This document shows positions 35,939 to 54,506 of a DNA stretch of 64,000 bases, one piece after another. Under the pieces are notes generated by a model. The model ran no database searches, was not told where the DNA came from, and worked only from the letters and a program-made list of their open reading frames with translations. The position numbers and the translations under genes were made by a program. The DNA is taken from the NCBI GenBank assembly GCA_015060455.1, contig SUYM01000013.1, forward strand, positions 17,692 through 81,691, written 5' to 3'. This DNA is from Bacteroidales bacterium (GTDB lineage Bacteria > Bacteroidota > Bacteroidia > Bacteroidales > UBA932). How positions within the stretch are numbered: position 1 is the first letter of the stretch; each line of letters opens with the position of its first letter.

Positions 35939-38900
35939 GAAATAACTCTATCGCATTTACTGAGACAGAATACAGGCAAAACCATAATAACAGCAATAAG
36001 TGAAACGATCATTCCTCCGATAGTTCCTATGGCGAAATCGAACCAAAAGACTTCCTGCGGGCCGTCTATAAGGAAAGGTATCAATCCCAGAACCGTAGAA
36101 ATTACTGTCAGCATTATAGGGTTTATCTTTCTACCGAGCGCCTTCACATAGCCGCGGATTCCTGTCAGTTCTGGATTATGTTGTATTACATCCTTATATG
36201 TCAACACTAAATATATTCCTGCATTCACGACAATTCCACATAGCATTACGAATGCCGCAAATCCGCCCTGATCAAAAGATAGATCGGACAAGCCAAAAGT
36301 CAGGAAAAGACCTATGAATGAAATCGGAATCATAAATATTACAGCCAGCGGAAGGCGAAACGATTCAAAGATAATTGCCAGCATCACGAAAATAACTGCC
36401 ACTATCAGGAATATCAGCCAGGCATACTTGTCTTTGTTCTCATCCCACCAGCCTCCTTGAGGGTTATAAGCCTTATAGCCTATCGGAAGTATTTCTTCGT
36501 TCATATGCTCTACAGCATTATTTATAACCTTGTTGGACAGTTCATAGCTTCCAATAAAGTCAAAACGCACACTTAGTTCATACGATTGATTATTTTTAGA
36601 TATGGTAACTCCAGATATTTTTTTTTCAATATTACCTATTTCTTGCAGAGGGACAGAGACATCTTCTACACAAACTGGAGTATGCAGAAAGTGCCAGTAG
36701 TCATATTTTTCTTTTTCAGATGATCGCAAAACCACCTCCGTCATTTCGCCTTCAGTGATGATAGATGATACGGAATTATCATATAATTGCGAAGCCAATG
36801 CTGAATAATACTGATATGGAGTGATATTCACTAAAGCCATTCTCTTGAAGTCATATGCCATATTAAGCTCGGTTTTGGGGCGCCCGTTCCATCCGGTTCC
36901 CCAAACCTCAGCTCCAGAGACTCGTCTATTCTTGGATATGTTTTCAATCAGATATTCTGCATATAGTTTAAGTTCCTGATAGTTGTAACCCCTGAGAGTT
37001 ATTCCATGTGACTTATGATTTGTCACAATATTGTTATTAAATCCGTTATCGTCTATACCATAAATCAACCAGTTAGCACCACCAAAGTTTATAGCCATTG
37101 AGGTTACCAGAGACTTGAGTTGCAACGGAAATGCAGTGTCTTCATATTCCGGTTTGAATTCTACTATTATTGACGCATTATCATATGAAGATATTTTTGT
37201 TGTAAACACCTTGATTTCATCAAACCCTGCAAGATAATTCTCCATTGATTTCACCACCTCATTCAACTGATGTACGGTACATCCTTCAAGCATTCCTGCT
37301 TTGATATGCAGAGTCTTCTGCTGAGGCTCACGATAGAAATTTGATCTATCTAATGCTCTATAGAATGCTCCAAAAGAAGATCCAGCGATTTTGTCTATTG
37401 CCTGTCTGTTGTCAGCATATGGTCTCCAGGATACAACTTTCTCCACCCCTTTCTGCCAGAGGTTCTTGTCCGTTTTCTTCTCCAACTGTGCGGAAGTCGG
37501 AAGCAGGCAAAGTGGCAAACCGAAAATAAGAATGAAAACGAAGATATAGACCCATCTGTGCCTTAGGCCCCATCCTATATATATTCTATAACTCTCTGCC
37601 CATCTTACCTGACGTCTGTGCTTTTTCATTGACGACACAGAAGCCGAAGTCTGCACCGGAAGATAATCCATCAGCGCCGGTATGAACAGCCAAGACACAA
37701 AAAGAGAAGCCACAAGATTAAGCGAAATGACCCAAATGAAGTCCTTCAGGTTTGCCTTCTCGCTCTCCGGCAGAAGGAGGACCATCAGCAGAGCCGCAAT
37801 AGTTGTCCCCACGGCAGCGAGCAGAGAAGGAAATGCCTTCCTGTCGCGGAAATGGGCATAATGGTCTATCATCACGATAGTGGTATCTATCACTATACCC
37901 AGAGAAACGGTAATTCCAGCAAGGGTGTATATGTGGATGCTGATACCGGCAAAGGCATAAATTGCAAGTGCAATCAGCAGATTTACAGCAAGAGTCAGGA
38001 CTATTATGAGCATATATCTCCACGAACGACTCACTGCAAAGACAAACAGCAGAAGAATCAGCAGGCATAGTCCTGTACGAAGATATATCTTATCAAGCTC
38101 TCCCGACACATATTCGGATGAATCGTATGCTATGCTCGCGGTTATCTCTTCCGGAAATTCACGTTGCAGTTTCAGCATTGTCTCGCGGACATCTTTTGTC
38201 ACGGTTAAGAGATTGACGTCTCCAGCTACTCCAACAGAGAGGGTGATGGTGTTAAGTCCGTTGACTCTGTAGTATGATTCTGGGAGCGACTCCTGATATT
38301 TCCAGTCCGCAACATCTCGCAGATGAACGATTCTTCCCTCTGAATTCTTCACAGGGATGCTTCCAAAATCCTCTCCTTCATTCATAGAGGCAAGCCTTAC
38401 GGCCATAGTTTCACTCCCAGCCTCGGATATTCCTATCAAAGTCTCGGAATATGCGTTACGGAATGCTTCTGCGATATCAGATGGGTTCACCCCGGCAGAC
38501 GCAGTCTTGGCTGCATCAAAGGTTATCACCCAATGGTATGGAGTCACACCATAAAGCGACACGTTGTCAACACCCTTTACAGCGGAAATGTCCGGCATGA
38601 CGTGCTCGCGGACATACCTCTCTATCTCCTGTGAAGGCAAGCTGCCTTTTATAAGATAGGACATTGCAGTTGTAACCCTTTGTCCTTGGGCATTATGAGA
38701 GATTGATGGGTATGATACATCGTCTGGTAGGTCCGGGTATATGTATCTGATTGCCGAAGCAATTTCAAGACGAGCCACAGACAAGTCTGTCCCTCTCCCA
38801 AATTTTGCCCTTACTCGCCCTCGTCCAAGATACGAATCCGATGACACTTCCGTGACACCTTCTACACGTGAGATCACCCCTTCCAATTTTGATGTAACTT

Positions 38901-39072
38901 CAGACTCTACAATTTCAGGAGATGCTCCCGGATAAGAAAACGATATAGTTACAGTTCTACTGGCAGAAGATGGTTTATACTGAATATTCAGCATAGGAAG
39001 CGATACTATGCCGATCACCGACAGCACAGCCATCACTAACAATACTGAGAATGATGAAATCTTTCTACTCAT
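35935..39072 (-). CDS. RND-family efflux permease, second subunit
   Basis: Inner-membrane transporter of the AcrB/MdtB-C type. It starts MSRKISSFSVLLVMAV at 39072, overlapping the previous RND gene by eight bases; the longer track start at 39114 is unlikely. Twelve helices and two large periplasmic loops are seen. At the TM4 relay position it reads VIDTTIV, keeping one Asp of the usual D-D pair, and TM10 has VVNAG where AcrB has its Lys. Two adjacent, unequal RND genes suggest a hetero-oligomer like MdtBC. Part of set A with the adaptor, TolC and an NVEALA peptide. Confidence 0.88.
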   Translation of the reverse strand: MSRKISSFSVLLVMAVLSVIGIVSLPMLNIQYKPSSASRTVTISFSYPGASPEIVESEVTSKLEGVISRVEGVTEVSSDSYLGRGRVRAKFGRGTDLSVARLEIASAIRYIYPDLPDDVSYPSISHNAQGQRVTTAMSYLIKGSLPSQEIERYVREHVMPDISAVKGVDNVSLYGVTPYHWVITFDAAKTASAGVNPSDIAEAFRNAYSETLIGISEAGSETMAVRLASMNEGEDFGSIPVKNSEGRIVHLRDVADWKYQESLPESYYRVNGLNTITLSVGVAGDVNLLTVTKDVRETMLKLQREFPEEITASIAYDSSEYVSGELDKIYLRTGLCLLILLLFVFAVSRSWRYMLIIVLTLAVNLLIALAIYAFAGISIHIYTLAGITVSLGIVIDTTIVMIDHYAHFRDRKAFPSLLAAVGTTIAALLMVLLLPESEKANLKDFIWVISLNLVASLFVSWLFIPALMDYLPVQTSASVSSMKKHRRQVRWAESYRIYIGWGLRHRWVYIFVFILIFGLPLCLLPTSAQLEKKTDKNLWQKGVEKVVSWRPYADNRQAIDKIAGSSFGAFYRALDRSNFYREPQQKTLHIKAGMLEGCTVHQLNEVVKSMENYLAGFDEIKVFTTKISSYDNASIIVEFKPEYEDTAFPLQLKSLVTSMAINFGGANWLIYGIDDNGFNNNIVTNHKSHGITLRGYNYQELKLYAEYLIENISKNRRVSGAEVWGTGWNGRPKTELNMAYDFKRMALVNITPYQYYSALASQLYDNSVSSIITEGEMTEVVLRSSEKEKYDYWHFLHTPVCVEDVSVPLQEIGNIEKKISGVTISKNNQSYELSVRFDFIGSYELSNKVINNAVEHMNEEILPIGYKAYNPQGGWWDENKDKYAWLIFLIVAVIFVMLAIIFESFRLPLAVIFMIPISFIGLFLTFGLSDLSFDQGGFAAFVMLCGIVVNAGIYLVLTYKDVIQHNPELTGIRGYVKALGRKINPIMLTVISTVLGLIPFLIDGPQEVFWFDFAIGTIGGMIVSLIAVIMVLPVFCLSKCDRVIS

Positions 39073-42000
39073 CTTTTCTTCTGTATATCGAATAATAGAG
39101 CGCCGGAAGCACAAACAGGCTCACAAGAGTTCCAATGGTCATACCCACAATGATCACAATTGACATCGGATATTGGAGGTCATCACCCATATTGCCTCTG
39201 CTGAGGAACGGGCAAACAGCCAAAATCGTCGTAAGCGAAGTCATTATGATTGCCTTCCGCCTTCGGCTACTAGCCTCGGTCACGGCCTGTCTGAGCGCAT
39301 AGCCTTCCTTCCTCATCCTGTTTATCGTGTCTATCTTCAGAATCGAGTCGTTGATCACGATTCCACATATGACTACAAGACCGATCATCGACATCAGATT
39401 GATGCTTAACCCCATAACCCACAGGACAATCAGTGAAGCGAACACATCCACGACTATCTCAGACAAGATTATCACCGGCTGAAGGAGCGACTCAAATTGG
39501 GAAGCCAGAATCAGATATAGCAGCACAACAGCAATAATCAGGACCAGCATGAGTTCCAACACCATCTTCCTGTTCGAGAACCACGAGCCACTATAACTCA
39601 CCTCATATCCGTCATTTTCGCCAACCACGGAATTCACAATTGCCATCACTTCAGGGACATTATCCACATCCAGAGAGACGGGATAATAGTTACCCTCTGC
39701 CCCGGACACAACGGTCTTGAAATCCGCCATATAAGTTTGACGCATAAGTACCGAAACAGGAATCCTTACACCATCCTTGACAATAAATTTCTCCGAAAGA
39801 ATTTCAGCAAGGCTTCCTGCGTCATCTCCGGTAAGCACGGGGATCGTTCTTGCCCCCTGAACAATCGAGAACAATCTGTTTTCATTAAGGGAATTCCTGA
39901 GAACAGATGACAACTCCAAATATGACACATCATACAATGTCATCATCTGCGGATCTGCAATGAAAAGCGCATCGGTCTTTACCGGAACATCCTCAATATG
40001 CACTCCCGGCAGTTTAGCGCGAAGTTTCCCCAGCAACCCACGTAATCCTTCTACCTCAAGACGCGGAAGCGATGCTGGTCTTATCCTTGCGACCAGCGGA
40101 GCCTCGCTTTCGGCGAAAACAGCATCAAAGATATTGCCCGAGACTTCAAACCCATATACAGCAGAAGGATATTTCTCTGAAACGGCCTTTGCCAAAGCAG
40201 TCTTTACTTCTTCGACAGTCTTCATATCCTCGCAGTTCACATAGATTGAGGTTTCTCCGGTTCCAAGTTCACCGCTATGACCGAGGATGAACCTCTGCAT
40301 TCCCACCATTGAGGTGGTCTGAAGGCATTCATTCCGGATCATATTCTCCAGAGATGCTACTCTGCGTTCATTCTCCCAAATGCTTATCTGCTCGTTCCAG
40401 TCGATGGTCATTATAGTCTCCGTATAGGTCATCTCCGGAAGTCTTTCCTTTGGCATCAGTGCAAAACAAACCACGGCTCCCACCACGGACACTGCAAGAA
40501 TGCTCCACGCCACGACTCTATGCTCTATGAACCATCCCATTATTTTCTCGTCCCATCTGCGGAGCGGTTCATCAAAGGATATGCGCTCAAGCAGAGGATT
40601 GGCACGGAAGGACGGAAGCTTGCGATACCACCAATAGTAATAGACAGGTATCACAGTAAGTGTGACCACATAGGATGTCAGCAGGACAATTGTCACAGCC
40701 ATCGCCTGGTCGAAGAAGAGTTCGCCGGCGATTCCGCTGACGAAGATCAAAGGAATGAAAACCGCACACGTAGTAAGTACAGAACTGAGCATCGGTCCTG
40801 CGACCTCCTTGGTGCCTTCAATCACAGCATCCCGCAAAGCCTCTCCTCGCTGCCATCTTCCAGTGATGTTATCTACAAGGACGATGGTATTGTCCGCCAT
40901 CATTCCCACTCCCAGAAGAAGGCCTGAAAGAGATATTATGTTGATGGAAAGCCCCATCACGTAAAAAACGGCCATCGAAAATATCAACGCAACAGGCATC
41001 GTCAGAGACACAAGTGCAGGAGAACGGAAGTCCTTCATAAAGAAGAATATCACAAGACAGGCAAGAATAACTCCTACCATGATGTTCTGCACAAGATTGT
41101 TGATCGAATATTCCAGCAACTGGGTCTGGTCTCGGGTAACAGTAAACTTTATCTCCGGATACTCATTTGAGAAGTTTCCCATCATTGTATCCATACTTCT
41201 TCTCAAAGCGGACATTCTTGCATCGTTCTGCTTGATCACTGCCATACACACTGACCTTTTCCCGTCAGAGCGGACAAGTCCGGTCTTCTTGCCCGGTTGC
41301 TGCTGAACGCTTGCAATATCCTTTATCTGCATCACCCTGTCCCCGGTCCTGAACCAGATGTTCGCAATATCCTCGCAGGCGGCGACGCTAGAAAGGAACT
41401 TTACATTATACCTATACTGGCCGTCGTGGATGGTAAGCGATCCGAGATGGATGTTTGACGAATTTACGATATTCTCGAACTGAGCCTGAGTCAGTCCCAA
41501 CTGATCCAGCTTCCTCTGGTCAGGGATTATCATTATCTGATCATCGATATAACCGCTTATATCCACCATAGCCACCTCTTCCTGCTGTTCCAGACGCTTG
41601 CATATCACGTCCTGCGCAAAGCGGCTCATCTGATTGAATGCCTCTTCGGTATCCTCTACAGGAGTCAGATTTATGTAGAACGCAGGAATATCGGTAGCGC
41701 TGGCTTTCAACACCTTAGGACGGTCTATATCAGGAAGGACAGACATACATCTGTCGATCTTCTCATTCACCTCCACAAACACATAGTCCATGTCAGATCC
41801 GTGACTGAATCTAAGTCTGATAGTGCCGAATCCGTCTCTGGACTCGGTAGTGATCTCTTCCACTCCGTTCACCTGCATCAGTTGTTGACGTAGCGTCTTT
41901 ATGACGCTTTCATCCATCTCTCGTGCAGACATCTGAGAAGAAACCGCCTGAATGGTTATGTAAGGAATATCCATATCCGGAATCAACGACACAGGCAGAA

Positions 42001-42085
42001 GTCTCATGCTCACAATACCGAGCACGACCACCACCAGCATCATCATAGTCACGGAAATCGGTCTATCCAACAGGGTCTTCAGCAT
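39065..42085 (-). CDS. RND-family efflux permease, first subunit
   Basis: AcrB-like inner-membrane pump subunit of 1006 residues. It begins MLKTLLDRPISVTMMML, has the periplasmic porter loops after TM1 and TM7, and reads GMMADNTIVLVDN in TM4 (one Asp of the usual pair kept) and CGIVINDSILKID in TM10. Five bases after the adaptor gene and overlapping the second RND gene. The neighbours (peptide, signal peptidase, TolC) suggest a peptide or its modified product as substrate rather than a drug; this is inference. Confidence 0.9.
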   Translation of the reverse strand: MLKTLLDRPISVTMMMLVVVVLGIVSMRLLPVSLIPDMDIPYITIQAVSSQMSAREMDESVIKTLRQQLMQVNGVEEITTESRDGFGTIRLRFSHGSDMDYVFVEVNEKIDRCMSVLPDIDRPKVLKASATDIPAFYINLTPVEDTEEAFNQMSRFAQDVICKRLEQQEEVAMVDISGYIDDQIMIIPDQRKLDQLGLTQAQFENIVNSSNIHLGSLTIHDGQYRYNVKFLSSVAACEDIANIWFRTGDRVMQIKDIASVQQQPGKKTGLVRSDGKRSVCMAVIKQNDARMSALRRSMDTMMGNFSNEYPEIKFTVTRDQTQLLEYSINNLVQNIMVGVILACLVIFFFMKDFRSPALVSLTMPVALIFSMAVFYVMGLSINIISLSGLLLGVGMMADNTIVLVDNITGRWQRGEALRDAVIEGTKEVAGPMLSSVLTTCAVFIPLIFVSGIAGELFFDQAMAVTIVLLTSYVVTLTVIPVYYYWWYRKLPSFRANPLLERISFDEPLRRWDEKIMGWFIEHRVVAWSILAVSVVGAVVCFALMPKERLPEMTYTETIMTIDWNEQISIWENERRVASLENMIRNECLQTTSMVGMQRFILGHSGELGTGETSIYVNCEDMKTVEEVKTALAKAVSEKYPSAVYGFEVSGNIFDAVFAESEAPLVARIRPASLPRLEVEGLRGLLGKLRAKLPGVHIEDVPVKTDALFIADPQMMTLYDVSYLELSSVLRNSLNENRLFSIVQGARTIPVLTGDDAGSLAEILSEKFIVKDGVRIPVSVLMRQTYMADFKTVVSGAEGNYYPVSLDVDNVPEVMAIVNSVVGENDGYEVSYSGSWFSNRKMVLELMLVLIIAVVLLYLILASQFESLLQPVIILSEIVVDVFASLIVLWVMGLSINLMSMIGLVVICGIVINDSILKIDTINRMRKEGYALRQAVTEASSRRRKAIIMTSLTTILAVCPFLSRGNMGDDLQYPMSIVIIVGMTIGTLVSLFVLPALYYSIYRRKDE

Positions 42086-42089
42086 AACC

Positions 42090-43169
42090 TTATTTCTTTA
42101 ACTGTACCTTTGAACCGTCAGCAAGATTAAGATTACCCTTGACGATTACTTTGTCTCCGTCATTGAGTTTAGCGCCCCTGTCTGCATTGGCCGTAACTAC
42201 ATGTGAATCTCCGTTAGAACGGATAATATTCACGTATGTCCAGTGTGCGACACCATCGTCAGTATAAGTGAAGAGCACATCTAGATTGTCACGCACAACT
42301 ACGGCATTTCTCGGTACCACCAACTGTCTCGGAATCATGCGTTCTACGATCACCTTCACATTCATTCCATCAATCAACGAACCGTCATTACGGACTGTAG
42401 CACGGACCGCAATCTGACCGTTCTTATCGACTGTCGGGTTTATCTCGCTGACCTTGCCTGTAACTGACTTCGACGGATCAGCAAAAGGAATCACCTTCAC
42501 CTGAAGCCCTTTCTCCAGAAATGCATATTCTGATTCCATTACCGAGAAATCCACATCAAGGCTGCTGTCGTCAATCACTGTGCAGAACGGATCAACAGTT
42601 ATCCTGTCGTACTCCTTCAGTTTCAAATCTGCGACTTTTCCACTGTATGGAGCCTTTAGAACGGCCCCCTCAAAGTCCAGTCGGGCTCTTTCCAGACTGT
42701 TCTTTGCAGAAGTATAGCCCGAACGCATCTTTGCCATAGCAAGAACCTTCTGAGGTACGCCTGCAGTATCCTTGGCAGCATAACCCTGACCGGCAAGCAC
42801 ATCGTAAAGTTCCAGTTCCGCCTTTCCCAAAGCAATCTGAGCAGCCTCCATAGAAAGTTTGAGATCAGGTCTGTCAAGTTCCGCAATCACGCTTCCTGCA
42901 GACACCTTTCCCCCATTGACCACATTCAACTCCGACACGATGCCACTGCTTCCAAAAGACAGAGAAGCCCTGCGTCCGGCCTTAAGTTTTCCGTTTGACA
43001 GCAACTGATGGGCAAAGTCCGTCCTCTTCAAAGTAATGACTTCCACCTCATTTATCCCCGGCATGGCAACGATCTTTCCATCCTTAAACTCATCTGCAGA
43101 AGGATTCCCACAGGCTGTGATTGCCATTGTCGTACACATGACGACCATTATATTCAAAAACTTTCTCAT
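42090..43169 (-). CDS. RND periplasmic adaptor (membrane fusion) lipoprotein
   Basis: HlyD/AcrA-type adaptor of 359 residues linking the RND pump to TolC. A lipoprotein signal (MAITACGNP) gives Cys20 as lipid anchor. Then the lipoyl/barrel-sandwich halves: SLSFGSSGIVSELNVVNGGKVSAGSVIAELD and LKAPYSGKVADLKL, with a short helical hairpin (about 105-165) between, followed by the beta-barrel and membrane-proximal domains. Five bases before the first RND gene. Confidence 0.93.
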   Translation of the reverse strand: MRKFLNIMVVMCTTMAITACGNPSADEFKDGKIVAMPGINEVEVITLKRTDFAHQLLSNGKLKAGRRASLSFGSSGIVSELNVVNGGKVSAGSVIAELDRPDLKLSMEAAQIALGKAELELYDVLAGQGYAAKDTAGVPQKVLAMAKMRSGYTSAKNSLERARLDFEGAVLKAPYSGKVADLKLKEYDRITVDPFCTVIDDSSLDVDFSVMESEYAFLEKGLQVKVIPFADPSKSVTGKVSEINPTVDKNGQIAVRATVRNDGSLIDGMNVKVIVERMIPRQLVVPRNAVVVRDNLDVLFTYTDDGVAHWTYVNIIRSNGDSHVVTANADRGAKLNDGDKVIVKGNLNLADGSKVQLKK

Positions 43170-43267: not shown

Positions 43268-44263
43268 TTAGTCCTTGAAATAGTGATAATATAAGATGTT
43301 GGCTTGATTTGTATTCATACCATATAAAAGGTCATTTGCGTTATCTATTACAAAAACATTTATATATTTATCCAACAAAATACGTTTCCTGAGATTTCCC
43401 TCCCAATCAAACACATGAATTTCCGGTAAAATATCTTCATTAAAAGATCCATTAAAACAAAGCGCATAGATATTATCATTGTAAATACATGGGTAAGAGC
43501 CATAGGCTATATGATTTTCCTTTTCTCCAGGCTTGTATCTACGAAAAGTATTTGGCACACGCACATCTACATCTATTGTGTTCTCCTCATTTATATCCAA
43601 TATTCTAATCTTTCTAAAATTTGCATACAAACTGGCGACTTTATTCTCCGTAGGATGTTTTAGAATATGCTTTATGTAAGTGAATGCCTTCATCTCCCCA
43701 TTATAGTCACCCCATTCCGGATACGCACACAAATACTCCGGCTCATTGTCAGTATATTTATATAAAATGAACTCGGCATCCTCGTTGGCAAGATTCATAG
43801 ACAAATAACCATTTTCTACAAATATTCCATTCTGCGGATGCTTCCGAGTATTTATCTTTGATGACGACAAAATATTAATTTTATCTCCATCAACAACCAC
43901 CTCCTTCTTTAGTCCTCCTACATCCATGCATACAAATCCCTCATTGGTTCCAACTATACTTCTAGCATCAATATGCATAAATTCATTTGGTCCTCTTCCT
44001 TTTATACCAATATTAGTATAATGCCCTGAAAGTGGATCACTGAATATTGAAAACAAGGTATCGCCTTCACACTGATATACAACTAAATTATCACCTTGCA
44101 TAAACATCTTTGCGGGCATCAGCATTTCTCGTGACAAATCTATTTCATGCAGCGAAACTTCACTTGTCACTTCTGCATTTTCAACTATTCGAACGTTTGT
44201 CCGATTGCAGCAAACAAAAATTACCAAAAGGAAGGGTAAAGATATTTTTATAACAGTATTCAT
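43268..44263 (-). CDS. 6-bladed beta-propeller lipoprotein (set A)
   Basis: Bacteroidales 6-bladed beta-propeller family member of about 331 residues. The lipobox VIFVCCN puts a lipid on Cys near residue 19. Blade-like repeats follow, with the family GIKGRGPNEFMHID motif near residue 85. I use the ATG at 44263, four bases overlapping (ATGA) the NVEALA stop, matching the arrangement at 53752; the track begins three codons earlier. No enzymatic residues are seen. The constant pairing with NVEALA peptides suggests that it binds the peptide. A 98-base gap to the adaptor gene follows. Confidence 0.85.
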   Translation of the reverse strand: MNTVIKISLPFLLVIFVCCNRTNVRIVENAEVTSEVSLHEIDLSREMLMPAKMFMQGDNLVVYQCEGDTLFSIFSDPLSGHYTNIGIKGRGPNEFMHIDARSIVGTNEGFVCMDVGGLKKEVVVDGDKINILSSSKINTRKHPQNGIFVENGYLSMNLANEDAEFILYKYTDNEPEYLCAYPEWGDYNGEMKAFTYIKHILKHPTENKVASLYANFRKIRILDINEENTIDVDVRVPNTFRRYKPGEKENHIAYGSYPCIYNDNIYALCFNGSFNEDILPEIHVFDWEGNLRKRILLDKYINVFVIDNANDLLYGMNTNQANILYYHYFKD

Positions 44264-44541
44264 CGCATGCATTTTTGATTTACATTTGATGCAGAGGATA
44301 CTTTTTTGATTGTACAGTCAAAACAATCACGAACCTCCAAATATAAAGAAGGATCATAGTTATCATTGTCCACCTTCCAGCAGTCAACGTAACCATCTGT
44401 ACCTATTTCATTTCGGGCCAAAGCTTCAATGTTTGCGTGAAATAAAGAATCGGACCGATTACTTTTAACAAGCAAAGCAATAGCAATAACATTACATAAA
44501 AGTACAGTAGTAGCGACACAAGCATAAATTCTTTTCATCAT
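44260..44541 (-). CDS. NVEALA-family precursor peptide (set A)
   Basis: Small exported peptide of 93 residues. A single hydrophobic segment (about residues 8-27) is followed about ten residues later by NIEALA, the hallmark of the NVEALA family. The C-terminal part has four Cys in the order C-x18-CxxC-x16-C and would be the mature peptide. It lies 21 bases after tolC and overlaps the propeller gene by four bases. Biological activity of the family is unknown to me. Confidence 0.8.
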   Translation of the reverse strand: MMKRIYACVATTVLLCNVIAIALLVKSNRSDSLFHANIEALARNEIGTDGYVDCWKVDNDNYDPSLYLEVRDCFDCTIKKVSSASNVNQKCMR

Positions 44542-44562
44542 ACGATAATTTTAAATTAAACA

Positions 44563-46035
44563 TTAGTCTATCATTTCTTTAACATCAAGATTCAGATTAC
44601 TTCCCTTGATGAAATCATAAAGGGTATATTGTCTCAAAGTGTAATAGTAATCCCAGAAGTTGCTCACATCTGTGATATATTTCCGGAGGGCAGTATTGTT
44701 TTCCAACTGAGCGGTATTAAGTTCCATCACGCTTGCCTTGCCGCTACGGAACTTCTCCATCATAAGTTCATACCTCTCCTGGGCAATCAGCATCGCCCTT
44801 TTAGATACAGAACACTGATGTCTCTGATTATTGAACTGTCCTACTGCAGTAAATATCTTACGACGGAAATCATTCTCTGACTGCTGCACCTGAGCCCTCA
44901 CAACTTCCTGTGCCGCCTTGGCCTTCTGCACCTTACCCTTACCAAGTCCCCAATCAAAGATCGGCACACTGAAAGACAGACCAACAACCTCCTGATCAAG
45001 CAGATCAGAATACACTCCACCGAAATCCGGAGCTGTCTGAGATAATCCGAAACGTGCATTCAGAGACATAGATATCCCTCTCGATGCTTTAGCCTGTGCA
45101 ACAGCCGCCTCAGCATTCAGAAGATTGATCTCATTATTCAGACTGAAGGTTGAATTCTCCAAAGCCTTAGCCATTACCAAATCATAATCAATATACACAT
45201 CCGGAAGATTCGTCTCCAGCACAGGTGTTATCTCATAAGACTCATCGTATCCAAGAACGGAGTTCAACACCATCTGAGCCTCACGGACAGCAACAGAGGT
45301 TTCATTAATGGATATACTGTCATTGAGGACACGCAGTTCCAACTGCAGGAGTTCATCTCTGGTCACTGAGCCCAACGCCTGACGTTCCCTTGCCACACTC
45401 AGCATCTTTCCTGTATTAGTATAGTTACTGGTAGCAATCTCATAGTTCATCCTTGCTAGAATCAGCGAATAATATGCTCGCACAGTATTAATGGTAATCT
45501 GTTCCATAGACTCCAGATACTGTCTCTTTCCCTTCTCATACTCCTTTGGCTCAATCTTCTTGTCCCACTTGAACTGATTGTATGTAAAGAGGGGCTGATG
45601 ATACGATATCGTGATAGGCTGCGAATACCAGGTAAGACTTTTATCCATACCGAACTGATCAATACGGGACAGATCGGAATAAACTGACAGAGTGCCACCT
45701 GTGAATGTCAGATTCTGCTTCACTTGTATGCCTATACTATTCTGAAGGTTATATGAATTCACATACTGGAAACTACCGTCCTCATAACTCTGAATTAAAG
45801 TCAGCGACCTGTCGAAGTTCATAAGCCCTCCGTACAGATTGAACGACGGCAACCGGCTTGCTCTATATGAGCGATATGCCCAATATGTTGAAATAAAGGA
45901 CTGTTTGGCTTCCTTAGCCTCAACCGACTGAGTACGGGAAATGGAAATAGCCTCTGCCATAGATACTGTTTGTGCATCTATGCCAGGCAAAAATGATAAC
46001 CACAGACCAATTGATATAACTAAAAGTTTTTTCAT
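44563..46035 (-). CDS. TolC-family outer-membrane efflux protein
   Basis: Outer-membrane channel of 490 residues with a signal peptide ending near GIDAQ. Two long coiled-coil repeats are seen (for example about residues 165-230 and 385-445), and the body has the alternating pattern of a TolC/OEP barrel. It starts by ATGA overlap with the signal peptidase gene and precedes an NVEALA peptide. With the adaptor and the RND pair it completes a tripartite exporter. Confidence 0.93.
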   Translation of the reverse strand: MKKLLVISIGLWLSFLPGIDAQTVSMAEAISISRTQSVEAKEAKQSFISTYWAYRSYRASRLPSFNLYGGLMNFDRSLTLIQSYEDGSFQYVNSYNLQNSIGIQVKQNLTFTGGTLSVYSDLSRIDQFGMDKSLTWYSQPITISYHQPLFTYNQFKWDKKIEPKEYEKGKRQYLESMEQITINTVRAYYSLILARMNYEIATSNYTNTGKMLSVARERQALGSVTRDELLQLELRVLNDSISINETSVAVREAQMVLNSVLGYDESYEITPVLETNLPDVYIDYDLVMAKALENSTFSLNNEINLLNAEAAVAQAKASRGISMSLNARFGLSQTAPDFGGVYSDLLDQEVVGLSFSVPIFDWGLGKGKVQKAKAAQEVVRAQVQQSENDFRRKIFTAVGQFNNQRHQCSVSKRAMLIAQERYELMMEKFRSGKASVMELNTAQLENNTALRKYITDVSNFWDYYYTLRQYTLYDFIKGSNLNLDVKEMID

Positions 46036-46835
46036 TCAGCATTGTTTACTATCCCAACAATAAAATCACCTGGCATAAAACCAATATACCTGCTGTCACG
46101 TGAATTCAAGACATTATCTCCGCCTAAAAAATACCAATCTGATAAAAATTGATATTCTGATATAACCTTCCCATTCAACAGCAGAACTTCATCTTTTTCC
46201 TCAAGCCACATCCCTGTCTCATAATGAATCTGTTTCCTATAACTTCTATAATTCCCTAACGTCAAATGAATACTCCCACCTTTTTTAGGAACATATATTG
46301 GTCCCATGTCAAGTATTGTCCAGTTCCGCGGTCTGTCCACATTCCATGCATCAACATAGACCCCCATATTCCTCAACTCAGCGTCACCAAGTTCTGAGAT
46401 TTCATTCTGAAAACACTTAGGTCCGAAAGATATTCCATTCTGAGGATGAACATAATGACCATCAACAATCTTGATTGTATCTCCCGGACACCCGTAACAC
46501 CGCTTGACATATACTCGGTTGATAGTAAACGTAATGGAATCACGACACCTGAAATACGGATCATTTATCACAACAATATCCCCCACATTCGCTTCGCGCA
46601 ATCCTGGCATGCGGAAGCACTTAAGTTCAGGAGAATCGAAATTAAAATCAGTATATATTCTTGCACCAAGAGTCAGCTTATTCACACAAACTCTTTCTCC
46701 ATCAAATAACGTTGGTTCCATTGACGATCCCCGTACTATGAAAGTATCACAGATGAACACTCTGACCAGCAGACTAATCACCAATAAAATAGCAGCAGTT
46801 AAAACAACTATTGTTATATACCTGAAAACCTTCAT
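46032..46835 (-). CDS. Signal peptidase I (S26), cluster-specific
   Basis: Membrane-bound leader peptidase of 267 residues. One N-terminal helix (about residues 8-28), then the catalytic Ser38 in RGSSMEPTL, the catalytic Lys111 in VKRCYGCPGD, and the conserved LGGDNVLNSRDSRYIGF motif near the C-terminus. It is probably not the housekeeping enzyme, because it is the first gene of an operon for TolC, an NVEALA peptide and an RND exporter. It may cut the NVEALA leader. A propeller pseudogene ends nine bases upstream. Confidence 0.9.
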   Translation of the reverse strand: MKVFRYITIVVLTAAILLVISLLVRVFICDTFIVRGSSMEPTLFDGERVCVNKLTLGARIYTDFNFDSPELKCFRMPGLREANVGDIVVINDPYFRCRDSITFTINRVYVKRCYGCPGDTIKIVDGHYVHPQNGISFGPKCFQNEISELGDAELRNMGVYVDAWNVDRPRNWTILDMGPIYVPKKGGSIHLTLGNYRSYRKQIHYETGMWLEEKDEVLLLNGKVISEYQFLSDWYFLGGDNVLNSRDSRYIGFMPGDFIVGIVNNAE

Positions 46836-46844
46836 CCCGTATCA

Positions 46845-47139
46845 TCAAAGAATTATTACCTGTGTCAGCACAGTGCCTGATTTCATACTATATAATTCTA
46901 TCATATAGTCACCTGTCGGCTTATTCAATACTATCAGCACCGTATCCTGATATACCCAAAAGTCCTTTGCATGCAGAAGTTCTCTGGATAGCGGCAAAAT
47001 TTCATAAGTCGTCAGGACTTCCGTATCAATTTTATCTAAATCGAAGTTTTTCCTCTTGCCATTCAAAAACATAATCAGCGTTGTATTGACAACTATACAA
47101 AACAGATAGAACGCATATGACAAAAAAGGAAGCTCTCAT
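46845..47139 (-). pseudogene. Truncated, frameshifted propeller lipoprotein
   Basis: Remnant closely related to the start of the propeller gene at 52712. The leader (MRASFFVICVLSVLYSC, then QYNADYVFEW) reads from an ATG at 47139, but one base seems lost in an A-run near 47050 so the body continues in another frame. The body matches the intact gene through LLHAKDFWVYQDTVLIVLNK and then stops after about 90 codons. All later blades are missing. The DNA between about 46895 and 47139 is a duplicate of 53490-53752. Confidence 0.75.
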
Positions 47140-48369: not shown

Positions 48370-50268
48370 TCAATGCCAAATTATTGTCTTCTTTTCATCA
48401 TCCCACACGAATATACGATTCTGAACCCCGCGGGATATACCTTTTATATAATATAATGCTCCTGACGGAAGATCGGAAACTCTCAAACAAACATCATCAG
48501 CTGTTATTGAGGTATGAAATTTCCATGACGAGTCATGCCAATAATATATTTCATACTCATCTCCCGGGATAATCGCATTACCGTCTCCTCGTCTTACATA
48601 CATAATCTCCTTCAGGGTAACAGGTTCGCCAAGATCAATGATTTCCAATAGTTTATTTTCGTTCGGGCTATAATTAGTCAAGGGGTCTCCATCCACAAGT
48701 GAATTTCCAATTATAGGCCTTATAAAGTTACCATCAACGCCCACGAAGAAAAGTTCTGCCATATCACACTTTCTGCCATCCTCTGCACATAAACGCCAAT
48801 ATCTATGCGGTTTTGTTTGACGAACTATGACCTTCCCGGAAGTGAGCAACCATTCAGGCAACTCAGATACAATCTCTGACTTACTGAACAACGGGTCGTC
48901 TGAGGCTTCAATATAGCCGCCATGGAGTGCTTTGTGTATAACAAAGACATGCTGAAACATCGGATATTTCCTACAAATCTCAAAAGATTCAGTATCCCTA
49001 AAATTGGGAGTAAATTCATTTATATTCCCGTCAAAGTCCAAATGAAACGGCTTACTTAACGGTATCTGCTCACCATTCTCATAACCGACTACCATATAAG
49101 TAATATTTTTTCCCATTCCTTTAAAAAATGCCCTTCCACAACACTTATTTCCCCAATAGACCGGTTTCCAATCGAAATTATCAAATACCGCTATATACAC
49201 ATCACGCCGAGAATATCCGGTTCCCTTTATCAGAGGCACTTCGATATCTACAGTTTGCATATATTCATCTGTAACATCCTTAAAGAACGGGGTACGACAG
49301 AGAGGTGGCACATCGCCTTGATACTTCTTCAAAAGAGCCATACACTCCTTGTTCTGAGCGTATGTCCTTCTAAACACTTTTGCAAATTTGCAATGTGAAT
49401 AGTGTGGATAATCCGGATTACTCGCGTATGGATTAAACATGGTCGTCTTCCCTCTAAGATTAGGAAAAATACACCAATAATGCCCATAATATCTATCTGG
49501 CCACTGTGGCGTATAATCAATACCAACAGGAATACCCTTACTGCGCATGATTCTGACGGCCATCTCTGAGTAATCCTCGCAAGAAGCACCGGGCAAAAGT
49601 GCGAAAGTTGAAGGACGATATATGTTATGACCAAACGAGTCGTGATGCCATTTCTGCTTCACTATCATTCCCTTTAACTTATCATTAACGCGACAAATAG
49701 CCGCACGCGGACAGCCCTTATAGTCATCACACTCGTTCAGTTTATCAATATAACTTTTGGCAATAGGTTCCAAATCCACACGCCATTCATCCATTGGCTC
49801 CGACTGTCCACATGTATAAGGAAGCAGCCACTCGCAAAATTCTTCGAAATCTATATGTTGCGCCCACTCTCCTTCTCTCCACTGAGCGAAAGCCAAGTCT
49901 ATATTACGAATAAGAAAATCTGCACGAATTACTCTACTGTCAAACTCATAAGAAATCCTGTCATCGTATCCCGAAGAAAGTTCCGGCAATTTTCGAAAGG
50001 CTATATCAGGCGATTCACTAAATTCGAAGAGACTGTCTACAGCATCATAATATGTGGAGTAATCCCCAATCATAGATTTATGACCTGGCATGTTCGTAAT
50101 AAGCCACTCTGCTGCCTGTAACTTCTCTTCATCCCCGGATGCAGCATAATGTTCAAGCACCTTTTCCAATTCGCCTCTATTGTCACCTGCAAACTCCAAT
50201 GCCTGCTGCAATCCATCAGCACACGAAACAGTCAACACAAAAACAACCAATAATATAAATCTATTCAT
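48370..50268 (-). CDS. Transglutaminase-like lipoprotein with discoidin-like tail
   Basis: Exported lipoprotein of 632 residues (lipobox VLTVSCAD, lipid Cys16). A helical N-terminal region precedes a transglutaminase-like core with Cys in GASCEDYSEMA (about residue 230) and His in YYGHYWCIF (about 264) followed by the TMFNPYASN stretch. The C-terminal part is beta-rich (SLVDGDPLTNYSP), like discoidin/F5-8 modules. It follows the set B propeller gene by 24 bases. It might cross-link or cleave the NVEALA peptides, or act on cell-wall peptides; sequence cannot decide. Confidence 0.75.
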   Translation of the reverse strand: MNRFILLVVFVLTVSCADGLQQALEFAGDNRGELEKVLEHYAASGDEEKLQAAEWLITNMPGHKSMIGDYSTYYDAVDSLFEFSESPDIAFRKLPELSSGYDDRISYEFDSRVIRADFLIRNIDLAFAQWREGEWAQHIDFEEFCEWLLPYTCGQSEPMDEWRVDLEPIAKSYIDKLNECDDYKGCPRAAICRVNDKLKGMIVKQKWHHDSFGHNIYRPSTFALLPGASCEDYSEMAVRIMRSKGIPVGIDYTPQWPDRYYGHYWCIFPNLRGKTTMFNPYASNPDYPHYSHCKFAKVFRRTYAQNKECMALLKKYQGDVPPLCRTPFFKDVTDEYMQTVDIEVPLIKGTGYSRRDVYIAVFDNFDWKPVYWGNKCCGRAFFKGMGKNITYMVVGYENGEQIPLSKPFHLDFDGNINEFTPNFRDTESFEICRKYPMFQHVFVIHKALHGGYIEASDDPLFSKSEIVSELPEWLLTSGKVIVRQTKPHRYWRLCAEDGRKCDMAELFFVGVDGNFIRPIIGNSLVDGDPLTNYSPNENKLLEIIDLGEPVTLKEIMYVRRGDGNAIIPGDEYEIYYWHDSSWKFHTSITADDVCLRVSDLPSGALYYIKGISRGVQNRIFVWDDEKKTIIWH

Positions 50269-50292: not shown

Positions 50293-51369
50293 TCAGTCAA
50301 ACACCAGGGAGTGTTCCATAGGAAATTTTATCACTTTTTCTGTGTCATAGTCAATCACATACAGTTCTCGCTGCTTTACATCAATATCGAAATACAATGC
50401 CCTGACAGGAAGTTTTATCTTAGCCAGTGGTGTGCCATTCCATTTGAAGAGATAAATTACAGGCGGTCCGAAAGCACCTTTATCCAACTCTTCAATCGTG
50501 CACCCGATATGTAAGCCTGCAAAAAAACTCTCATATACCTTTGCGTCATAGAACATCTTTCTTCTTTCATATCCATCTTCTCTCTCCAATTCATTTACAT
50601 CAGTAATCGATTCTCCGATGACAAGGGTCCTTTGAAAATCATTATCATAAGAATATAGATGAATAACATTCATAAGCGAACCAAATTCAACAATCATCTG
50701 TTTATCCTGGTTAACCACTATGGATGTTGCCAACAGATTGGCATCAGACACATTAACTGAGTTCAGTTTTACCATAGCCCGGTTAAAATACTCCTTCTTG
50801 TGGCCTGACAACATAAATCTTTCAAATCCCGTAGCATCCACATTCCATCTTCTGCAAAGCAATGTATCACCCGCTATCTTGAAATATCGCGCTCCAGAGG
50901 CGAGAGATAACGAATCAGCAACAACATCCCACGTCCCATATCCTAATTTCAACGACTCAACCAAATCATACACAAGGTAGTTACCTTTATAATCAAACAG
51001 ACCTACGTTATATGTTCCATCTTGAACATCGAAGTCAAGCCAGGAAACAAAAGGCTGATACAGAACCTCACCCGGTCCTCGTCCAATTCTAAGGAAAGGA
51101 GGATATCGACACTCTATGTCCTTTGAATAAACAGACAGACAACCCATAGTATCATGACACGATATCAGAATATAATCGTCCAACACTTTGAGTCCATGAC
51201 TACCAATAGTTTCGATTCCAATATTCTCGTATGATTCGGGTTCTATTTCCATCGGAAAGTCACTAACATAAACAATGTCGTCAAATGCGAACTGTTCTCT
51301 CCTGTTGCAGGACAAAAGCAACATGAGAGAACAAACAACCATCGCTAAATATCTACAAACATTGACCAT
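50293..51369 (-). CDS. 6-bladed beta-propeller lipoprotein (set B)
   Basis: Lipoprotein of 358 residues with the lipobox LMLLLSCNRR. The propeller body carries the FLRIGRGPGEVLYQP motif typical of the family and ends at DYDTEKVIKFPMEHSL. It lies 12 bases after an NVEALA gene and before the transglutaminase-like gene. Probably faces the periplasm or, after outer-membrane sorting, the outside. Confidence 0.85.
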   Translation of the reverse strand: MVNVCRYLAMVVCSLMLLLSCNRREQFAFDDIVYVSDFPMEIEPESYENIGIETIGSHGLKVLDDYILISCHDTMGCLSVYSKDIECRYPPFLRIGRGPGEVLYQPFVSWLDFDVQDGTYNVGLFDYKGNYLVYDLVESLKLGYGTWDVVADSLSLASGARYFKIAGDTLLCRRWNVDATGFERFMLSGHKKEYFNRAMVKLNSVNVSDANLLATSIVVNQDKQMIVEFGSLMNVIHLYSYDNDFQRTLVIGESITDVNELEREDGYERRKMFYDAKVYESFFAGLHIGCTIEELDKGAFGPPVIYLFKWNGTPLAKIKLPVRALYFDIDVKQRELYVIDYDTEKVIKFPMEHSLVFD

Positions 51370-51381
51370 CTGTGAAAAATC

Positions 51382-51651
51382 TTACTTACAAAACCCCATA
51401 CCACTGTAACCTCGACCTGGAATCACACTACACGTACCACAATACCTTACATCATCCGTCGGATCAGACATAACTGTCTCCCAACATCTGACATACTCTC
51501 CTGATTCTACCTGAGACAACGCTTCTACATTTTCCTCAAACAACATAACAATATTTAACACCCTCGGACTATCCGCCCTAAAGGTAACACACACCCAACT
51601 GGCGAACATTGCAATAACAATCGTCAATACTATAGTCGTCGTAATTTTCAT
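51382..51651 (-). CDS. NVEALA-family precursor peptide (set B, second)
   Basis: 89-residue precursor from the ATG at 51651 (MKITTTIVLTIVIAM); the track start eight codons earlier would overlap the previous gene. The hydrophobic segment (about 5-22) is followed by ENVEALSQVE. The mature part has four Cys with RYCGTCSVIPGRG, nearly the same as the CGTCSILPGRG of the peptide encoded just upstream, so the two are close paralogues. Confidence 0.85.
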   Translation of the reverse strand: MKITTTIVLTIVIAMFASWVCVTFRADSPRVLNIVMLFEENVEALSQVESGEYVRCWETVMSDPTDDVRYCGTCSVIPGRGYSGMGFCK

Positions 51652-51665
51652 ATCAATACCCTTTA

Positions 51666-51920
51666 TCAGTAACACGCACTCTTATCTGCACCACGACCCG
51701 GCAAAATACTACACGTACCACAATACATACATTGTTCTGACGGATCAGATGTTATTCTCCGATAGCACTTCGAACCTCCACTCTCCGCTCCAGCTAGTGC
51801 TTCGACATTTTTTGAAAAAACTGGATTCATAGTGCCAGTCCCGTTAAAAACGTAACCTGACAAAGAAATCACCACTGCAAGGGAAAAAATTGCAAATGCA
51901 AAGAAAAATTTGCGTATCAT
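51666..51920 (-). CDS. NVEALA-family precursor peptide (set B, first)
   Basis: 84-residue precursor. Hydrophobic segment at about 7-26, then KNVEALAGAE at about 38-47 and a Cys-rich tail (KCYRR, QCMYCGTCSILPGRG, SACY). It is the first gene of set B, with a clear promoter 36-66 bases upstream. Confidence 0.87.
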   Translation of the reverse strand: MIRKFFFAFAIFSLAVVISLSGYVFNGTGTMNPVFSKNVEALAGAESGGSKCYRRITSDPSEQCMYCGTCSILPGRGADKSACY

Positions 51921-52075: not shown

Positions 52076-52633
52076 TTACGGCTTTTCGGTATTCATCTCA
52101 TCCACTACTTTACAGAATAAATTCCAAAGAGCATCACCTGCTAAAGGGTCCCCCACAAATATAGGCTTTCCATTTCGACCTATCAAAAAGCTATGAAAAC
52201 GCTTATCTGACGGGATATGAAAGTTTTGTCTCGCAAAACTTCTATCATAATCAAGATAAACTGGAAAATCCTGATTCCGTCCTCGCAACGCATCTACTAC
52301 ATCTCCATATTCTTCTGCACCTGGAGACAATATCGTCATGACGACAAATGTCCCGAGACTATCAGCCAATTCATATATTGGTTTTCTCTCATGAAGATAA
52401 TTAATCTGACACAGACTACATGACAGGGAATCACTGTAAAAAATCATCACCGGCATATCCTCTTTTGTCTTTGACATAGAAAGTACACCTGACTCCACTT
52501 CTTGAAAACACGCAGGCAAGACTATATCCCGGCTCGTAAATTTTGCCAACTCGCGAGAAATTCTCGTCCGTTCGGAGCAAGAAAGCATCACAAGCAAAAG
52601 CATATTACAGATAAAAAATCTTGCAAGCCTCAT
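52076..52633 (-). CDS. Thioredoxin-like lipoprotein with CSLC motif (set C)
   Basis: Lipoprotein of 185 residues (lipobox VMLSCSE). The strand MPVMIFYSDSLSCSLCQINYL holds a CxxC pair at the position of a thioredoxin active site, and the later FPVYLDYDRSF and FLIGRNGKPIFVGDP segments fit the thioredoxin fold, with the usual cis-Pro position replaced or shifted. It probably handles disulfides in the periplasm. It follows the set C propeller gene by about 80 bases and may serve the Cys-rich NVEALA peptides. Confidence 0.72.
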   Translation of the reverse strand: MRLARFFICNMLLLVMLSCSERTRISRELAKFTSRDIVLPACFQEVESGVLSMSKTKEDMPVMIFYSDSLSCSLCQINYLHERKPIYELADSLGTFVVMTILSPGAEEYGDVVDALRGRNQDFPVYLDYDRSFARQNFHIPSDKRFHSFLIGRNGKPIFVGDPLAGDALWNLFCKVVDEMNTEKP

Positions 52634-52711: not shown

Positions 52712-53752
52712 CTATCTGTGAAATTTATACAATACCACAAGACCATCATCATCTTTTCCCCTAACGTATAAAGTATTCCCATCTGAGGAGGTCGATATTG
52801 TAGCAAGATATTTATCAAGGAAGAAAGATCCAAGCAAGTTACCAGACCAGTCAAATTGAAAAATATAAGTTCCGCTGATTTTTTCTACATTTTGGCCAGA
52901 ATATGTAACATAAAAAGAATCGCCCGCATTACATGCCCCCATATAACTATAAAACACCGCTTCGAAAAACGACACGCGCCCATCGTTATAGGAATACTTT
53001 ACATTCAATTTTTTCGGTCCTGTAATTTTAGTTAACGGAGCAAGAGAATAATCATAAATCTCAATTTGGCTCAAATCCAAACCGGCAAAAAGTACAAGTC
53101 TTTTGCTTTCATTTATAAGTATGTGTCCTTGAGAGACGTTAAACGCATTCAATTTACGAGTATCCGGGTTCCTACCATCAGAGTAAAAAAAACGAGGTTC
53201 CTTGTTGTCCACACCATCATCAGATGAACTAAAACAGTACGGATTCAGAAACAACATTTTACCACCTATTTCATGAACATCATACACATTCAATTCTTCT
53301 TTATATTTCTTGAATGGTTCTAATTCATAGGCATCTTTATATTGTATGATTTCCTTTAAATCAATAACAGTATAGTTGCCCTTGACAAAATCTCTTACAT
53401 ATAAGGAATCTGTATTTACTCTGGCATTGCAATTCAACATTTCCATCGGACCATTCCCTTTCCTTATCTTCCTTGTCAACATTGCGCCTGATTTTGTGCT
53501 GTAGAATTCCACCCAATAGTCACTCGTCGGCTTATTCAATACTATCAGCACCGTATCCTGATATACCCAAAAGTCCTTTGCATGTAGAAGTTCTCGGGAA
53601 AGTGGCAAAATTTCATAAGAGGTAAGTACCTCCGTATTTATTTCATCCAACTTGAAAGTTTTTTCTTCATGCCATTCAATTACATAATCAGTGTTGTATT
53701 GACAACCACACAACACTGACAGAGCGCACATGACTAAAAGGTTAACTCTCAT
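52712..53752 (-). CDS. 6-bladed beta-propeller lipoprotein (set C)
   Basis: Lipoprotein of 346 residues starting MRVNLLVMCALSVLCGCQ; the ATG at 53752 overlaps the NVEALA stop by ATGA, so the track start 19 codons upstream is not used. The lipid Cys is in LCGCQ. The body contains RKGNGPMEMLN, the family motif region, and repeated beta strands to the end. Its first third is duplicated as a pseudogene at 46845-47139. Confidence 0.85.
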   Translation of the reverse strand: MRVNLLVMCALSVLCGCQYNTDYVIEWHEEKTFKLDEINTEVLTSYEILPLSRELLHAKDFWVYQDTVLIVLNKPTSDYWVEFYSTKSGAMLTRKIRKGNGPMEMLNCNARVNTDSLYVRDFVKGNYTVIDLKEIIQYKDAYELEPFKKYKEELNVYDVHEIGGKMLFLNPYCFSSSDDGVDNKEPRFFYSDGRNPDTRKLNAFNVSQGHILINESKRLVLFAGLDLSQIEIYDYSLAPLTKITGPKKLNVKYSYNDGRVSFFEAVFYSYMGACNAGDSFYVTYSGQNVEKISGTYIFQFDWSGNLLGSFFLDKYLATISTSSDGNTLYVRGKDDDGLVVLYKFHR

Positions 53753-53982
53753 AAGTCTACTTGTTTTCCGGAGCATGATAACGTATTCCCCAAATAGGAC
53801 CCTTCGCACTCACCTTCTTCTCCTACACACTTGAAGATAACTTTACCTCTGACATTAGTGATCTCACAAGCTGCCAATGCCTCAACCTCTAAATTCCAAA
53901 CGCATGTGCTCTTTGAAATATTTAACACTACTGCGACTATTGCTGCAACAGCCACAAGCATAAAAAATAAAATCTTTTTCAT
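53749..53982 (-). CDS. NVEALA-family precursor peptide (set C)
   Basis: 77-residue precursor. Hydrophobic segment at about 5-21, then LEVEALAACE at about 31-40. The mature part has four Cys but no CxxC, so it is the most diverged of the four peptides. It begins 27 bases after the CxxC lipoprotein gene and overlaps the propeller gene by four bases. Confidence 0.78.
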   Translation of the reverse strand: MKKILFFMLVAVAAIVAVVLNISKSTCVWNLEVEALAACEITNVRGKVIFKCVGEEGECEGSYLGNTLSCSGKQVDL

Positions 53983-54009: not shown

Positions 54010-54396
54010 TTAAATATCTACATTTTCTTCATCCGCCTCAAAAATATGCCCCTCTATTATACTTTCAAAAGGATAATCATCCTCTACAAAAATAATCTTA
54101 ATTTTTGTTTTTCCTACATACTGGTCTAAATAATATGAAAATATTTCTTTATACATCCCCTCCAAATACATACAGCAGGGGGTATGGATATTAGATTTTT
54201 CATATGCTTGAATAAATATGATAGCCTTTGCAATACAAGCCGAACATGAGGCATCTAAATTATAGCGAATAAACCCTCCTTTGTTAATTTGTTTTGAAAA
54301 AGCCTTAATTTCATTGTTCATATCCAAAACGGCTCTATTAGAGTCATCTACACAACTAAAGAAAAGGGCACAAAGAAGAATAAGCAGTCTTTTCAT
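54010..54396 (-). CDS. Small CxxC lipoprotein, thioredoxin-like (set C)
   Basis: Lipoprotein of 128 residues with the lipobox ALFFSCVD. Residues around 50 read LDASCSACIAKAI, a CxxC at the start of a helix as in thioredoxin-like proteins, followed by two more Cys (TPCCMYLEG). The protein is short for a full thioredoxin fold. First gene of set C. The transposase remnant starts about 110 bases upstream on the other strand. Confidence 0.65.
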   Translation of the reverse strand: MKRLLILLCALFFSCVDDSNRAVLDMNNEIKAFSKQINKGGFIRYNLDASCSACIAKAIIFIQAYEKSNIHTPCCMYLEGMYKEIFSYYLDQYVGKTKIKIIFVEDDYPFESIIEGHIFEADEENVDI

Positions 54397-54506
54397 CTTA
54401 CCATTAATGTCAGTTCGACGAAATTAAGTTATTGATTATTAGGTAAATAGTAATATATTTTGTAAATTTGAAATCGCCACAAGTCAGCTTCACAAAATAC
54501 ATTGCT

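Follow-up and report, generated by a model that had tools for sequence, protein, structure and literature searches.

Among the characterised peptides of the order Bacteroidales, the bacteroidetocins are the nearest analogues of the system described here. They are secreted peptides of 42 residues that contain four Cys; a thiol oxidoreductase gene lies close by, and their leaders of 15-16 residues are cut after GG by a C39-type transporter (PMC6671954). The NVEALA family (PF14055) is named after its motif only. NVEALA peptides are found in many Bacteroidales, and we found no function reported for them: the open-access literature yielded no paper on NVEALA, text matches to PF14055 mostly concerned Plasmodium and none the family, and literature on the partner proteins held nothing that we could find on an NVEALA system. 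Here we analysed a 64,000-nt stretch (hereafter the window) of a Bacteroidales bacterium (UBA932; assembly GCA_015060455.1, contig SUYM01000013.1), in which four putative NVEALA precursors are encoded in a cluster together with an S26 signal peptidase of type I. Our analyses suggest that the NVEALA motif is probably a cleavage site resembling those of signal peptidases, but unusually far from the membrane segment, with the cluster S26 as its usual but not its only enzyme.

The four precursors, in which EAL is followed by A or S, were all found as a preliminary description of this DNA had listed them; only precursor 1 lies within the interval 44260-46835 given there. Precursor 1 alone passes the curated PF14055 cut-off (27 bits), precursors 2 and 3 score below it, and precursor 4 has no Pfam match and was matched by a leader profile whose training set included it; all three share the motif and layout of the family. 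The resemblance to bacteroidetocins lies in similar size, in four Cys, in a neighbouring thiol oxidoreductase gene and in occurrence in the same order. The predicted cargos of precursors 1-4 have 51, 43, 41 and 40 residues with 4, 4, 5 and 4 Cys, in line with the peptide of about 40-50 residues predicted earlier. Unlike bacteroidetocins, the NVEALA precursors have a hydrophobic leader and no conserved GG, and no PF03412 (C39) match was found in the window's genome (83% complete). Double-glycine processing by a C39 peptidase was rejected on this result and on the absence of a fixed GG at -2/-1 in 82 precursors. A C-x(n)-C-x-x-C-x(n)-C pattern occurs in many cargos, 3 from the window among them. 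In the form C-x(n)-[YR]xC-x-x-C-x(9-12)-C, it is common to the window cargos at 44263-44415, 51385-51513 and 51669-51791 and to a Prevotella cargo (L106), the cargos being otherwise hypervariable.

The cluster S26 has its own parallels among signal peptidases. With E. coli LepB and family S26A it shares PF10502, the Ser/Lys dyad and the fold (matches to 1kn9, 1b12 and 4wvj). It differs from LepB in forming a separate clade, in being shorter and in sitting in peptide clusters, and the catalytic Ser motif is VRGSSM in the window S26 and IPSGSM in LepB. SipW-type (S26B) enzymes have a dyad of the archaeal and endoplasmic reticulum type, with His in place of Lys, whereas the cluster S26 is of the bacterial Ser/Lys type with an invariant Lys111. 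It would nonetheless resemble SipW of Bacillus subtilis, which acts on TasA, as a signal peptidase assigned to one cargo; one study describes SipW as archaeal-organism-like and reports that LepB cleaves poorly when P2' is aromatic, which is the case in TasA (PMC10269814). SipA of the Streptococcus pyogenes pilus clusters is likewise a cluster-encoded signal-peptidase homologue with a fold match (4n31), and acts in pilus polymerisation (PMC4049620). Unlike SipA, the cluster S26 has intact catalytic residues and peptide precursors as neighbours.

We compared 82 distinct precursors from regions near PF14055 matches and near 80 S26 matches in named genomes. As candidates were first gathered by motif pattern, the motif counts are partly driven by the search, and the search was repeated with a profile without fixed letters. 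Numbered from the predicted cut, the consensus is L(-10)...N-[VI]-E-A-L-[A/S/T], followed by xxE. It has N at -6 in 80/82, V or I at -5 in 73/82, E at -4 and A at -3 in 78/82 each, and L at -2 in 80/82, and the residue at -1 is small in all 82 (A 65, S 13, T 4). Glu occupies +3 in 65/82, and L occupies -10 in 58/82, a position that is hydrophobic in 99%; information peaks at -6 to -1 and at +3. The free profile search added VEMLA, AELLA, VEVLA, VEAQA and IQALA as well as G or C at -1, so that overall -1 is A, S, T, G or C and -3 is A, also L, M or V. A small residue at -1 and a small or aliphatic one at -3 constitute the residue rule of signal peptidase I (SPase I), and by its sequence the NVEALA motif satisfies this rule of Sec/SPase I signal peptides. 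The A-x-A-like site of the preliminary description agrees with the data at -1; the conserved Glu at +3 lies outside A-x-A and is left unexplained by cleavage alone.

The motif coincides with a sharp boundary in conservation. Among paralogues of the same cluster, identity rises from 66% (-30 to -15) through 78% (-14 to -7) to 99% (-6 to -1), then drops to 24% at +1/+2, returns to 89% at +3, and falls to 14% (+4 to +6) and 9% (+7 to +25). A congener with nine paralogues shows 100% identity over -7 to -1, 11% at +1, 16% at +2, 100% at +3 and 5% at +4. Cys makes up 8.1% of residues after the motif versus 1.1% before it. In these alignments, a conserved leader joins a fast-changing cargo right after the motif, Glu at +3 excepted. 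A chance motif is ruled out by the 82 relatives and the paralogue profiles. The nine congener paralogues (L050:1658-18543) are mostly 1.4-3 kb apart, several followed by a propeller-like gene, and have near-identical leaders and unrelated cargos.

The distance of the site from the hydrophobic segment is the second distinguishing feature. From the end of that segment to -1 there are 17-28 residues (median 22) in the 82 precursors, compared with mostly 4-8 in TolC of the same loci, an ordinary SPase I control for which a crude site rule was used that sometimes chose earlier positions. According to a review, c-regions of Gram-negative bacteria usually have 5-6 residues, and a tested amylase was unprocessed at 13 (PMC12190922). 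The NVEALA site therefore fails the ordinary signal-peptide spacing of about 5-7 residues after the h-region, and the earlier statement that it lies farther out than ordinary signal peptidase I sites is borne out. In precursors 1-4, the motif starts 11, 16, 17 and 11 residues after the hydrophobic segment and its last residue lies at 17, 22, 23 and 17; the 10-17 residues reported previously hold for the start of the motif (11-17) and not for its end (17-23).

The enzyme itself matches PF10502 (90.7 bits, cut-off 22.9) and TIGR02227 (79 bits, cut-off 47). Its catalytic Ser38 (46722-46724) and Lys111 (46503-46505), in the SM and KR boxes, do not vary among 24 relatives, nor in a set with housekeeping LepB among its members, which confirms the separate S26 with an intact dyad noted before. 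G239-D240 and D247-S248-R249 of the GDN..DSR..G box are likewise invariant in the 24 relatives. Its structure model (pLDDT 86, pTM 0.84) matches structures of E. coli LepB, S. aureus SpsB and S. pyogenes SipA with probability 1.00, although the structures superpose poorly overall (TM 0.3-0.4, relative to the query). In the window S26 and its congener, the catalytic Ser lies in VRGSSM or VGGDSM (residues 34-39) instead of the IPxxSM found in LepB and in most of the clade, and Gly takes the place of the residue that aligns with Ser88, which belongs to the oxyanion hole in E. coli LepB. Besides the cluster S26, the window's genome encodes one other S26, a 447-aa LepB on another contig (L074). The comparison of cluster and housekeeping enzymes proposed in the preliminary description was run as a tree of 75 rows, and 41 cluster-type S26 split from LepB with an SH-aLRT of 99 and a stem of 1.09. 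The cluster-type clade includes enzymes of Phocaeicola vulgatus, Bacteroides, Parabacteroides, Prevotella and Paraprevotella, and the window S26 does not group with the housekeeping LepB of Bacteroidales. Cluster-type enzymes have 265-310 aa, LepB about 440-500 aa.

We searched 393 genomes of the order Bacteroidales with PF14055 and a profile of the S26 clade. NVEALA was found in 38 at E<=0.01, 22 of them over the cut-off, and the clade S26 in 17 (E<1e-80, with a clear score gap). NVEALA over the cut-off occurred in 16/17 genomes with the clade S26 and in 6/376 without it (Fisher p 1.1e-22); this p value is too small given the shared ancestry of the genomes, yet the 17 span 10 family codes. 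In the named genomes, leaders were present in 12/23 loci around clade S26 versus 0/57 around LepB-type S26, the latter including lineages without NVEALA, so that a comparison within genomes is fairer. In 25 NVEALA genomes, the S26 enzymes within 20 kb of an NVEALA match were 18 shorter ones versus 1 of LepB length, and this one (G074:C87) is not that genome's LepB. An S26 lay within 20 kb in 17/50 NVEALA contigs, many of the others being short contigs or satellites with the enzyme elsewhere in the genome. Four genomes of the window's family without NVEALA have only LepB. The loci with a clade S26 but no NVEALA leader nearby include two notable cases: L205, from the same genome as L105, has the pump, propellers and a transglutaminase-like gene but no detectable leader in the 20 kb analysed, and L115 of Parabacteroides distasonis has no leader near its S26 and none of the usual neighbours.

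Several observations weigh against the reading that the cluster S26 cuts at the motif, the first being that NVEALA also occurs without the clade enzyme. This is so in the over-cut-off genomes G074 (which has its own S26 type), G121, G239 (65% complete), G280, G290 and G389, and likewise in G108, with weaker, motif-bearing matches. In G290 and G108 (99% complete), PF10502 finds only housekeeping S26, and the S26 enzymes of G121, G280 and G389 are confined to LepB and its tandem neighbour; all five keep the motif, and precursors of such clade-less genomes have it at the same distance. A strictly obligatory cluster S26 is ruled out by these genomes, in which LepB or another enzyme must act, if anything does. 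Housekeeping LepB might cut the NVEALA site, leaving the cluster S26 as a helper with overlapping specificity or with something else to process, and in all 11 precursors sampled where the clade S26 is missing, both -3 and -1 are strictly A, the LepB-compatible form. We consider this quite unlikely, as 17-28 residues are far outside the reported working range of SPase I (PMC12190922), the S26 clade hardly occurs outside NVEALA genomes, and apart from TolC the clusters offer no other recurrent protein that is an evident substrate of SPase I. Given that the other exported cluster proteins, judged by their N-termini, are lipoproteins (processed by SPase II) or TolC, the peptides are the likely substrates of the cluster S26; other substrates within the cluster were rejected on the same grounds. 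S or T at -1 and L at -3 were seen only where the clade S26 is present (small numbers from few genomes), and G at -1 also in G239. The specialisation of the S26 for the motif, as proposed earlier, is consistent with the sharp boundary, the small -1, the distance and the near-confinement of the clade to NVEALA genomes; its exclusivity fails, since clade-less genomes keep the motif. Where precursors carry L or M at -3 (G255, G387 and G371, from two families), the clade S26s group in one six-row subclade (L054, L081, L186, L083, L185), a suggestive co-variation of site and enzyme. In G074, S26 enzymes of 413-482 aa lie beside NVEALA genes (L065, L199, L200), outside the clade and on long branches, and perhaps represent a second, independent recruitment.

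The remaining counter-evidence concerns the form of the leader: the conservation of Glu at +3 and the strictness of E-4, N-6 and L-2 exceed what SPase I needs, and a low-confidence model places a helix across the site, whereas SPase I binds extended substrates. Acidic residues recur seven apart at -11 (52%), -4 (95%) and +3 (85%), positions -13, -10, -9, -8, -5 and -2 are mostly hydrophobic, and there is no Pro from -10 to +2. This acidic stripe and hydrophobic face could form an amphipathic helix, which may hold the site near the membrane or serve as a recognition element. The precursor model, poor overall (pLDDT 62, pTM 0.22) and too poor for a fold search, shows residues 33-46 as a helix that runs through the motif and ends at Glu+3, with a pLDDT of about 57 there. 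NVEALAxxE might accordingly be a recognition helix for an exporter, a propeller lipoprotein or a protease, comparable to the helix of double-glycine leaders, with the cut elsewhere, for instance directly behind Glu+3 or within the run of small residues next to it. The invariance of Glu+3 in the nine congener paralogues, where +1, +2 and +4 vary, would suit this idea, as would the Pro-free acidic stripe, the end of the predicted helix at Glu+3 and the propeller gene that follows most precursors (61/82, see below) with or without S26. We regard it as unlikely all the same, given that -1 is always small while +1 is free, that nothing is conserved beyond +3, that no C39 match was found in the window's own genome (83% complete), and that the motif goes with the S26 clade. 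A bolder reading is that the leader is a distinct kind of signal sequence, in which a hydrophobic segment is followed by a helix lying on the membrane, whose recognition code extends across the cut (L-10, N-6, E-4, A-3, L-2, small -1, E+3) and is read by a co-evolved S26 clade about 20 residues from the membrane segment. The S26 subclade that goes with L or M at -3 lends suggestive support to such co-evolution; we offer this reading as a tentative possibility.

Under the favoured reading of the motif as a cleavage site, the four small open reading frames (ORFs) would be precursors of secreted Cys-rich peptides. A Sec-type N-terminal hydrophobic segment would send the rest of the precursor into the periplasm, and the extension of 17-28 residues ending in N-V/I-E-A-L-A/S/T would be the processing signal. 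Where present, the cluster S26, a Ser/Lys protease from a separate clade that would be adapted to a membrane-distant site, would cut after the last small residue and free peptides of 40-51 residues in the window. By resting on the membrane surface, the putative amphipathic helix might bring the site within reach of the enzyme. Disulfide formation might then fall to the thioredoxin-like lipoproteins, and the RND/HlyD/TolC complex might serve as the peptide's exporter. Products that instead stay anchored, with a motif of structural function, are very improbable: the hydrophobic segment could act as an anchor and cleavage is a prediction, yet the cargo is hypervariable and Cys-rich, the cluster encodes an export machine and a protease, and the small-residue rule holds at -1. 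A defined cut site would specify exact mature peptides for synthesis and for testing as bacteriocins or signals, and would tie NVEALA peptides to a propeller partner, a pump for export and a subfamily of signal peptidases. Cleavage some 20 residues away from the membrane segment would, if it occurs, widen the known scope of enzymes of the signal peptidase I type.

Table 1. Features of the NVEALA cluster in the window.
Feature	Coordinates	Strand	Evidence or remark
O-antigen-ligase-like (Wzy-like) membrane protein with TPR region	34643..35938	-	PF04932 61.4 bits
RND pump subunit 2	35935..39114	-	PF00873 387.9 bits
RND pump subunit 1	39065..42085	-	homologues recurrent in other clusters
HlyD/RND adaptor lipoprotein	42090..43169	-	TIGR01730 157.4 bits
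TolB-like six-bladed propeller lipoprotein	43268..44272	-	PF15869 53.4 bits; lipobox read from sequence
Precursor 1, 93 aa, NIEALA then RNE	44260..44541	-	PF14055 29.8 bits
Precursor 1 motif NIEALA	44416..44433	-	predicted cut after last codon; cargo 44263-44415
TolC-type outer-membrane channel	44563..46035	-	PF02321 118.8 bits
S26 (signal peptidase I type), 267 aa, one N-terminal membrane helix	46032..46835	-	PF10502, TIGR02227
Transglutaminase-like lipoprotein, weak F5/8 C domain	48370..50268	-	recurrent in NVEALA clusters
Propeller-like lipoprotein, downstream of precursor 2	50293..51369	-	propeller-profile seed; without Pfam match
Precursor 2, 97 aa from GTG or 89 aa from internal ATG at 51651, NVEALS then QVE	51382..51675	-	PF14055 19.9 bits
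Precursor 2 motif NVEALS	51514..51531	-	
Precursor 3, 84 aa, NVEALA then GAE	51666..51920	-	PF14055 21.8 bits
Precursor 3 motif NVEALA	51792..51809	-	
Thioredoxin-like lipoprotein with CSLC, recurrent partner	52076..52633	-	no Pfam match; homologues in most clusters
TolB-like propeller lipoprotein, overlaps precursor 4 end	52712..53809	-	PF15869 28.5 bits, just below cut-off
Precursor 4, 77 aa, EVEALA then ACE	53749..53982	-	architecture, motif, cluster position
Precursor 4 motif EVEALA	53872..53889	-	
Small thioredoxin-like lipoprotein with CSAC	54010..54396	-	sequence only

Neighbours recurring across clusters are TolB-like, DUF5128 and DUF4934 propellers, DUF1573, S26, HlyD/RND, Wzy-like and transglutaminase-like proteins; the O-antigen-ligase domain also recurs in S26-linked clusters (4/66 neighbours). 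A propeller gene lies at most 400 bp after 61/82 precursors, whether S26 is present or not, and the propeller rather than S26 is thus the most constant partner of the precursors. Pairs of a peptide and its own lipoprotein in variable sets might represent a bacteriocin with its immunity protein or a signal with its receptor.

In the window, the genes from S26 through TolC, precursor 1, propeller, HlyD and the two RND subunits to the Wzy-like protein are tightly packed (Table 1), with overlaps of 4 bases between the S26 stop and the TolC start and of 13 bases between the end of precursor 1 and the propeller at 43268..44272. The placement of peptidase and precursors in the same operon, as first described, applies from S26 to the RND genes with precursor 1 and does not extend to precursors 2-4, which are 5-8 kb upstream, past a truncated propeller gene and unrelated ORFs (47275-48059). 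The truncated gene (46845-47123), just upstream of S26, is closely similar to part of 52712-53809; it may be a remnant of a duplication or rearrangement that perhaps split S26 from the upstream precursors. The two ORFs at 47275-48059 (193 and 68 aa), between the halves of the cluster, have no Pfam match and give the impression of a small module inserted there. Upstream, the cluster is bordered by a partial DDE transposase gene and a gene for an antitoxin-like protein with a SocA/Panacea domain (54468-55130 and 55156-56280).

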